A stretch of 64,000 nucleotides of DNA, taken from positions 124,001-188,000 of the forward strand of contig JBBFKQ010000003.1 in NCBI GenBank assembly GCA_037481935.1. The letters are read 5' to 3'. Shown here in pieces: positions 43,962-46,142 of the stretch. The stretch is from Aquificaceae bacterium. Lineage in GTDB: Bacteria > Aquificota > Aquificia > Aquificales > Aquificaceae. The notes under the pieces were generated by a model that made no database searches, was not told the origin of the DNA, and saw only the letters and a list, made by a program, of their open reading frames with translations. The position numbers and the translations under genes are program-made. The first letter of the stretch is position 1. Each line of letters starts with the position of its first letter.

Positions 43962-46142
43962 ATGTGGCGTGTTGTATACACCGGACAGAGACCTCACTAC
44001 GAAAACATAGCCCTTGACAGGATAATGCTTGACCTTATGGCGGAGGGGAAGATTCCTCCCACTGTAAGGTTTTTGCAGTTTAGGCCCGAGTGTGTGCTGG
44101 TGGGATTTCATCAGGCAGTGGAGCAAGAAGTCCGTCTTGAATACACGCAGAGGGAAGGCATTCAGGTGGGGAGAAGAATCACCGGAGGGGGTGCCATATA
44201 CTTTGACGAGACCCAGATAGGCTGGGAGGTGATAGCCAGCACGGAGCACCTTAGAAGCCTGAGCTACGAAGAGCTGACAAGAAAAATATGCACCGGTGTC
44301 GCAAAGGGCCTTCAGAAGCTTGGCGTAAAGGCAGAGTTCAGACCAAGAAACGATATAGAGGTAGAAGGAAAAAAGATTTCAGGCACTGGCGGTGTCTTTG
44401 AAGGAAAGGCCTTTCTCTATCAGGGCACCGTGCTTATGGACTTTAACGTGGAGCGCATGCTAAAGTCTCTGCAGATTCCTGTGGAAAAGCTCACCTCCAA
44501 AGGCATAAAGTCCGCAGAGGACAGGGTAGAGTGGGTAAAGAGGGCTCTGGGCTATATGCCTCAGAAGGAAGAGGTCTTCAGGGCAATCCTTGAAGGCCTA
44601 AAGGAGGAGCTCCAGATAGATGCTCAGTGGGAGGAGCTCACTGAGGAGGAGCTCAGGCTCTTTGAAGAGAAGAAGGATTACTTCAGGAGCGACGAGTGGG
44701 TCTACCATGTGAAGAGGGCTCCCACCGACAGCGAGATGCTTTTTGGCATATACAGGTGTCCGGGTGGAACCTTCAGGGTTTCTGCCAAGGTGGACCTTCA
44801 GAGCAAGGTGCTACAGCAGGTAATAATAAACGGGGACTTCTTTGTCTGCCCTCAGAGGCTCATCTACGACCTTGAGGCCTATCTCAAGCATAGCCCCCTT
44901 GTGGATGTGGAAAAGAGAATAAGGGAGTTCTTCTCACAGAGAGATTGGGAAGGTCTGAACCTGAAGGTGGAAGACTTTGTGGAGGCAGTCCTCTTTCCCC
45001 TGCGCAAGGTGGAGGGCATAGAGCTGGGTATTGAAAAAAAAAGACTGAATAACATCATAGCCTCCATAGGTGGAGGACTTGTGGAAAACCTCCAGAAGGC
45101 AAAGGTGATGCTCCTGCCCTACTGTGCCAAGCCAAGATGGTGCGACTACAGGCATCTGGACGACTGCGGAGAGTGTGGGGGATGCACGGTGGGAGATGCC
45201 TACAGGCTTGCCTACCAGAAGGGCATGATACCCATAACCATAACCTCCTTTGAGCTACTCAGAGACACTCTCTTGTGGTGTGCTCAAAATGGATACACCT
45301 ACATAGGACACTGCTGTTATGAGTTTTATGAAAAGAGATACGAAATATTTAGAAGGGCGTCGGAGGAGGGAGCAAAGGGCGTACTCTTTGACATTGTGGG
45401 AACCACCTGCTACAGCCTGGGCGTGGAGGAGGAAGAGAGGGCATACCACGGAGAGTTCACCGTAGAACTTGACCTTATAAAGGAAGACCTGTACAACAGC
45501 CTTTCTATAAAGGAAGATGCGGAGGAAAAGGAAAACAGAAGGGAGACAAGTTTTGGCTTTTCTCCTTACCTTGCGGACTTTAGGCCAGAATACTACAGAA
45601 AGCCTAAGGCGGTGCCGACACCTCAGGAAGATAGGACAAGGACCTCCATGCAGAGAGAGGTCTTCCTTGGAGAGGCAACCATAGGAGAAGAGGTTGTAGG
45701 CTATCGGGAAGCCTTTGATACCCTTGCCCGATGGCTAAAGGAATCTGAAAGACCTACCATAGTGCTGGGACCTCTGGTCTTCTGGGACTTTGGAGAGAAG
45801 GAGCTTCAGGAAAAGGCAAGGCTCCTCAGGGAACTTATTGAGAAGGTGGGAAGGTTCAACGTGAAAGTCCTGCCTGACTACAGACCAAAGCTAAAAAAAT
45901 ACGACCCTTCTGTAGAAATGGACCCTCCTAACCCGCACCATGCAGTGCTCCATGGCAGGCACGACCTTACGGTGCTTGTGGGAGTGCACTGCTACAGAAC
46001 AGACTTTGTGATAAGACTTCTGAGAAAGTATACGGATACAAAGGTGGTTGCCCTCTGCGGGCTCTATGGACATCCTACCGCACACCTCTCAACGAGCTTT
46101 ACGGATGCGGAAAAACTGGAAGATTTTACAAAACTCCTTTGA
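43962..46142 (+). CDS. Lipoate ligase-like / DUF116 / CODH-beta-like three-module protein
   Basis: 726 residues. Residues 1-250: lipoate/biotin ligase-like catalytic domain with RRITGGGAIYF (71-81) and the lysine of GKKISGTGG (K138). Residues 255-345: LplA accessory-like domain. Residues 380-510: cysteine-rich DUF116 (C388, C394, C402, C405, C408, C440, C451-C452, C483). Residues 590-726: a Rossmann-like part with IVLGPLVF, DLTVLVGVHCY and ALCGLYGHPTAHLS, resembling the small CODH subunit CdhB family. AGGAGG precedes ATG 43962. It may attach or build lipoyl groups on a dedicated carrier, as in sulfur-oxidising Hdr systems, an inference. Confidence 0.8.
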   Translation: MWRVVYTGQRPHYENIALDRIMLDLMAEGKIPPTVRFLQFRPECVLVGFHQAVEQEVRLEYTQREGIQVGRRITGGGAIYFDETQIGWEVIASTEHLRSLSYEELTRKICTGVAKGLQKLGVKAEFRPRNDIEVEGKKISGTGGVFEGKAFLYQGTVLMDFNVERMLKSLQIPVEKLTSKGIKSAEDRVEWVKRALGYMPQKEEVFRAILEGLKEELQIDAQWEELTEEELRLFEEKKDYFRSDEWVYHVKRAPTDSEMLFGIYRCPGGTFRVSAKVDLQSKVLQQVIINGDFFVCPQRLIYDLEAYLKHSPLVDVEKRIREFFSQRDWEGLNLKVEDFVEAVLFPLRKVEGIELGIEKKRLNNIIASIGGGLVENLQKAKVMLLPYCAKPRWCDYRHLDDCGECGGCTVGDAYRLAYQKGMIPITITSFELLRDTLLWCAQNGYTYIGHCCYEFYEKRYEIFRRASEEGAKGVLFDIVGTTCYSLGVEEEERAYHGEFTVELDLIKEDLYNSLSIKEDAEEKENRRETSFGFSPYLADFRPEYYRKPKAVPTPQEDRTRTSMQREVFLGEATIGEEVVGYREAFDTLARWLKESERPTIVLGPLVFWDFGEKELQEKARLLRELIEKVGRFNVKVLPDYRPKLKKYDPSVEMDPPNPHHAVLHGRHDLTVLVGVHCYRTDFVIRLLRKYTDTKVVALCGLYGHPTAHLSTSFTDAEKLEDFTKLL

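Follow-up and report, generated by a model that had tools for sequence, protein, structure and literature searches.

What would a lipoate ligase joined to a cysteine-rich module and a carbon monoxide dehydrogenase (CODH)-like domain do, and does its gene have one product or two? These questions are raised by the gene at positions 43962 to 46142 of the window, the whole 64,000-nucleotide stretch of Aquificaceae DNA analyzed here. The first-pass annotation described it as a single protein of three modules and suggested an unusual lipoyl assembly or repair factor. The open reading frame is real and encodes 726 amino acids, with homologs across the heat-loving Aquificaceae; since the fusion is kept throughout this family, it is no assembly chimera. 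The first-pass annotation overlooked, however, a run of nine adenines (A9) at the border between the first two modules and, with it, a probable second product.

Modules of the fusion protein

The gene contains the following features, listed by position.

43962..46142, + strand: whole gene, sLpl(AB)-DUF116-CO_dh fusion, 726 aa (predicted long product); open reading frame, profiles, and full-length homologs
43995..44600, + strand: LplA catalytic domain, aa 12-213; PF21948 (LplA-B_cat), 152.6 bits; 3r07, Z 31.8
44172-44192, + strand: ligase motif RRITGGG, aa 71-77; motif position
44370-44375, + strand: KKISG lysines, aa 137-138; motif position
44745..44990, + strand: LplB accessory domain, aa 262-343; NCBIfam NF053749, 43.5 bits; 5ij6 alignment
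45034..45042, + strand: putative A9 slippage tract, GAA AAA AAA AGA, aa 358-361, at the ligase/DUF116 border; conservation
45045..45491, + strand: DUF116-like module, aa 362-510; PF01976 and eight invariant cysteines
45046..45048, + strand: TGA that would terminate the short form after the loss of one A (...EKKD*); reading frames
45050..45052, + strand: TAA that would terminate the short form after the gain of one A or a -1 ribosomal shift (...EKKKTE*); reading frames
45675..46133, + strand: CO_dh (CODH epsilon-like) domain, aa 572-724; PF02552, 109.6 bits (cut-off, 21); 1ytl

The ligase half retains the RRITGGG motif and the KKISG lysines, as the first-pass annotation had said of the lipoyl ligase motif and its lysine. 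All three modules named there are present, and the LplB accessory domain makes a fourth. In the AlphaFold model (mean pLDDT of 82.8 for the whole protein, with lower confidence in the DUF116 part), residues 1 to 345 match the complete lipoate ligase 5ij6 (Z 29.9, 309 residues). Judged by its sequence, this half is the sLpl(AB) of the Aquificaceae, sLpl(AB) being the ligase that works in lipoate assembly with LipS1 and LipS2. Specifically, it is 42 to 47% identical to sLpl(AB) of sulfur-oxidizing Proteobacteria and shares the LplA-LplB order and the ligase motifs with the enzymes of Hyphomicrobium and Thioalkalivibrio (PMC10332631, PMC6067878). In the ligase tree, the fusion ligases, sLpl(AB), and the ligases of Lpl-DUF116 proteins group together, apart from five other ligases (93/84), a grouping whose support is moderate owing to long outgroup branches. 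Unlike sLpl(AB), the Aquificaceae gene adds the DUF116 and CO_dh domains and the A9 site, and it is located apart from the sHdr operon.

The second module matches DUF116 (Pfam ID PF01976) at residues 355 to 427, scoring 24.2 bits on the single protein (cut-off, 25) and 26.8 bits in the genome search. Among 32 related downstream modules, all match DUF116 at an E value of ≤0.01 (best, 3e-12), and 25 match CO_dh. Eight cysteines (C388, C394, C402, C405, C408, C451, C452, and C483) are invariant in the 32 relatives and are common to the proteins of Aquificaceae, Thermoplasmatales, Hydrothermarchaeota, Caldisericia, and Thioalkalivibrio. Judging from these cysteines alone, an iron-sulfur cluster in this module is plausible.

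The last domain had been likened to CdhB, the small subunit of CODH. This likeness extends to the PF02552 profile and to the fold, as the last ~150 residues of the model of the second half match CODH epsilon (1ytl; Z 12.1, 120 residues), but not to the cdhB equivalog family TIGR00315 (13.7 bits versus a cut-off of 101.2). Match lists of PDB fold searches with the models are taken up by the CO_dh and ligase domains. When compared with the PDB by sequence, the downstream half gives no match as a single sequence and weak CODH epsilon matches only as a profile. The CO_dh domain is 32 to 36% identical to Aquificota CO_dh-family proteins, and the same PF02552 domain and fold are found in CdhB and in the CO_dh-family proteins of Aquificaceae POR operons. 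In contrast to CdhB, it is part of a ligase fusion, and its relatives in this genome adjoin POR-type subunits. Two CO_dh-family proteins, encoded at L115:5623-6336 (contig C9) and at positions 206322-206807 of contig C2, lie in POR-type 2-oxoacid:ferredoxin oxidoreductase operons, and proteins of this kind are a possible source of the last domain of the fusion. A role in CO metabolism is not supported, as the homologs here sit in these operons.

The A9 tract and its frames

The sequence at the ligase/DUF116 border is AAAAAAAAA. In 46 distinct Aquificaceae genes from outside Hydrogenobaculum, the tract is A9 in 44, A10 in one, and A8 in one. Its first A may occupy any codon position, and the residues encoded are EKK(R/S/T/N), KKKE, DKKK, or GKKN; therefore, the length of the run is kept while its codon phase and the encoded amino acids change. 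No further run of at least nine A's is found within these fusion coding sequences, where lysine codons are mostly AAG (AAA, 945 of 2656) and 44 of the 238 KK pairs are written AAAAAA. Across 470 kb of Aquificaceae loci, 31 of the 32 A/T runs of at least nine are the junction site, and the remaining one belongs to a copy of this gene that has been rearranged. For 238 kb of this genome, a first-order Markov model predicts ~6.4 such runs; the junction tract is the one found. Counted genome-wide on either strand, A9 runs number four in this genome. The complete 1.7-Mb genome G036 contains a single A9 run, at the junction site, as does G041; such runs are commoner in other members of the family, above all the AT-richer ones, with up to 130 counted positions in G063. 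Resampling of synonymous codons gives a median chance of 0.05 per gene for a run of at least nine A's, and the product over seven genera, with the genera treated as independent, is ~5e-11. Shared ancestry does not explain the tract, because synonymous sites are near saturation between species even within a genus (dS of 1.6).

In the in-frame genes, both slipped frames reach stop codons 3 to 11 codons from the start of the run. The slipped product predicted here would be 361 to 363 aa long; ordinary sLpl(AB) proteins have about 343 to 371 aa. In eight genes of four genera (labeled g1, g3, g7, and g8), the DUF116 half is in the -1 frame, and the ligase frame stops soon after the run. In each of the seven that can be aligned at the junction, one more base would restore the frame. 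The two halves remain intact and evolve under strong purifying selection, with downstream dN/dS values of 0.03 to 0.08 where computable against in-frame relatives and 0.19 in L149, a divergent gene of g7. Every out-of-frame gene is from a draft or metagenome assembly; complete genomes have the fusion in frame. Annotation would label such genes as pseudogenes or as two unrelated open reading frames.

The split form in L149 (contig C144 of genome G049) has an A9 tract and a shorter, divergent DUF116 reading frame of 152 aa that ends without CO_dh. Another unusual copy, L039:8001-9987 of Thermocrinis sp. Bin P10, is rearranged, with the junction and the first DUF116 cysteines deleted and a new A9 run and a frame shift at codon ~231; it is either a pseudogene or an assembly artifact.

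In the fusion of Hydrogenobaculum, the A run, RRITGGG, and the catalytic lysine are gone, and DUF116 and CO_dh are kept. Hydrogenobaculum also encodes a separate, intact sLpl(AB) of 343 aa, which is the sister group of the fusion ligases in the tree (100/99). This pattern, seen in the sequences, is the one expected if a single gene normally supplies both a free ligase and the fusion, and may serve as a natural control. The family as a whole would then present an evolutionary natural experiment, in which the run is kept, the frame is flipped, and the run is lost once the ligase is encoded elsewhere.

Similar ligase fusions occur in other lineages. Some Thioalkalivibrio members have two genes, one for sLpl(AB) and one for Lpl-DUF116, and some Proteobacteria have sLpl(AB) and lack Lpl-DUF116. 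The archaeal and Caldisericia genes (L049, L051, and L053) share the LplAB-DUF116 order with the Aquificaceae gene; unlike it, they have no CO_dh domain and no A run of this kind. The idea that Lpl-DUF116 must always be accompanied by a free ligase was considered and rejected as a general rule, as no close free sLpl accompanies the fusion in archaeal and Caldisericia genomes. In the Thermoplasmatales and Hydrothermarchaeota genomes searched, no second close sLpl was found; therefore, a free ligase is not universally needed. A second, divergent Lpl-DUF116 (~31% identity) is encoded in Thioalkalivibrio on the - strand (L056:4896-6452, L059:5068-6603, L060:4670-6229, and L067:1899-3446), opposite to the adjoining lipS1-sLpl-lipT-lipS2 cluster. 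The usual G-x-H-Q region is missing from this protein, but GGG and a lysine are kept.

Readings of the A9 tract

Taken together, the sequences make it likely that this gene encodes an sLpl(AB) with DUF116 and CO_dh domains behind a programmed slippage site, at which slippage, probably transcriptional, would produce a free ligase as well as the fusion. Slippage in vivo, and a need for both products, we infer from what the sequences show: the tract is conserved, frames have flipped with both halves left intact, stops lie close by, and Hydrogenobaculum has lost the run. Speaking against this reading are the draft or metagenome origin of all the out-of-frame genes, the absence of the run from the archaeal and Caldisericia fusion genes, the lack of a second close sLpl in the Thermoplasmatales and Hydrothermarchaeota genomes searched, and the Proteobacteria with sLpl(AB) alone. 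In the proposed mechanism, RNA polymerase (or, less likely, the ribosome) would slip on the A9 tract, so that a share of the messages would carry one A more or one A less. In the in-frame genes, the unslipped message would specify the 726-aa fusion and the slipped one the free ligase of ~361 to 363 aa. In the out-of-frame species, the roles would be reversed, with normal reading giving the free ligase and slippage giving the fusion. A broader version, for which the odds are favorable if less so, is that A9 slippage yields free and fused ligase from one gene throughout the family, with RNA polymerase slippage setting their ratio and so linking the loading of octanoate to the insertion of sulfur by LipS1/LipS2 on LbpA, and that Hydrogenobaculum has met the same need by gene duplication.

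The closest known system is dnaX of Thermus thermophilus, where transcriptional slippage on A9 makes the short product account for about half of the output (PMC1088944). As in that gene (tau/gamma), the A9 run here is inside the gene, the slipped frames end early, and the predicted products share their N-terminal part. The two cases differ in gene and function, in that several species here have the fusion out of frame, and in that the present one is known from sequence. Conserved dual-output slippage is rare among cellular metabolic genes, dnaX being the classic case. A literature search found no link of a lipoate ligase with transcriptional slippage and none of DUF116 with lipoate; DUF116 itself was named in a single paper.

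The same two products could instead be made by the ribosome, through a -1 frameshift on A_AAA_AAA like that in dnaX of Escherichia coli. Every A9 run has this heptamer in phase, and all of the out-of-frame genes are in the -1 frame. However, no conserved hairpin is found downstream of the tract (mean z of -0.2) and no Shine-Dalgarno-like element at a consistent position near it, the length is fixed at nine where seven would suffice, and a shift is needed in only some of the orthologs. In the GeneTack survey, the lack of a fixed shift direction among orthologs was linked to transcriptional slippage (PMC3711429), and the direction is not fixed here. Frameshifting, whose biological outcome would be the same, thus appears unlikely; transcriptional slippage is favored because the length is nine, the shift varies among orthologs, and there is no conserved downstream structure.

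A plain single-product fusion, in which Glu/Asp-Lys-Lys codons happen to create A9 and the genes with a shifted frame are assembly errors or pseudogenes, is quite improbable. It would account for the conserved lysines at the tract and for the confinement of the out-of-frame cases to draft and metagenome assemblies, homopolymers being error-prone. However, it is at odds with the near absence of A9 elsewhere, the preference for AAG and the resampling result over seven genera, and with a run that survives amino acid changes and is followed by sequence of low dN/dS in the shifted genes. Slightly less probable again is a contingency locus, at which DNA slippage during replication would toggle between fusion and ligase-only genotypes (phase variation). 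The frames of related species do differ by exactly one A, but the length of the tract is nearly constant across genera, whereas contingency tracts usually vary, and a dual output would explain equally well or better why both slipped frames soon stop and why Hydrogenobaculum has lost the run.

Lipoate assembly and the candidate role of DUF116 and CO_dh

The genome (G000; Aquificaceae, 1.69 Mb in 26 contigs) has a lipoate-dependent sulfur system, as expected from the proposed role in lipoyl assembly: sHdr, LbpA, LipS1, LipS2, and a LipT-like protein were all found. The sHdr-type cluster on contig C9 (L114:9994-19793) encodes two LbpA proteins of the GcvH family, DsrE-like and HdrB/HdrC/HdrA-like proteins, and LipS1 (232 bits; cut-off, 230). 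A LipS2-like protein is encoded on C1 (196 bits, below the cut-off of 270), and a LipT-like flavoprotein is encoded on C11. The fusion gene is alone on C3, outside the shdr/lbpA cluster. In L053, from Thermoplasmatales archaeon bin14, genes for Lpl-DUF116, a LipT-like protein, LipS1 (245 bits), and LipS2 (238 bits, also below the cut-off) are consecutive on one strand; in L051, lipT is likewise downstream of Lpl-DUF116. The gene order in L053 is operon-like and is the strongest evidence that DUF116 probably serves LipS1/LipS2 lipoate assembly. A small MoaD/ThiS-like protein encoded just upstream of these genes (L053:7286-7609) is a possible carrier of sulfur in lipoate assembly.

The fusion, in full or split form, is present in 55 of 64 genomes of the family and absent from all 72 Aquificota genomes outside it. 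Of the 34 family genomes that are at least 95% complete, 31 have the fusion and LipS1 together and the other three have neither; LipS2 is present in 30 of those 31. Members of genus g10 lack the fusion, LipS1, and LipS2. Like sLpl(AB) in its pathway, the fusion is found together with LipS1, LipS2, a LipT-like gene, and LbpA/sHdr. The alternative of a metal-cluster protein dedicated to lipoyl repair, suggested by the fusion of a cysteine-rich DUF116 to a lipoate ligase, is highly improbable, as the operon and this co-occurrence favor de novo assembly with LipS1/LipS2 and nothing specific to repair was found.

Under the dual-output reading, the ligase half would load octanoate or lipoate onto LbpA for LipS1/LipS2. 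These enzymes take the sulfur from their own auxiliary clusters and, with ferredoxin, complete only about one turnover (PMC9585515); because the clusters are spent, a cysteine-rich domain beside the octanoylated carrier could resupply them. More tentatively, the long form may hold the octanoylated carrier and may give LipS1/LipS2 a replacement iron-sulfur cluster, through the DUF116 cysteines, and/or electrons, through CO_dh. Given its kinship to proteins encoded with POR-type subunits, the CO_dh domain could dock a POR-type complex or mediate electron transfer. The two domains probably serve sulfur insertion by LipS1/LipS2, which would make them candidates for an open step of this pathway, the rebuilding of the sacrificial clusters or the delivery of electrons, and would assign a pathway to the uncharacterized DUF116 family. 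CO_dh as an electron source in place of LipT, the donor proposed for this pathway, was rejected, as a LipT-like protein is found in most of the family genomes searched.

The sHdr operon of L114, with its two LbpA genes and LipS1 and without the ligase, LipS2, or LipT, departs from the published Group I description for Aquificae. L027 (RFFP01000022.1), titled Acidobacteria bacterium J001, is 84% identical here to Aquificaceae and is likely mislabeled. Besides GcvH and the two LbpA proteins, the genome encodes two more GcvH-like proteins (C7:98239-98607 and C11:24691-25038), which may be extra lipoyl carriers; one of their genes adjoins an FdhE-like gene.
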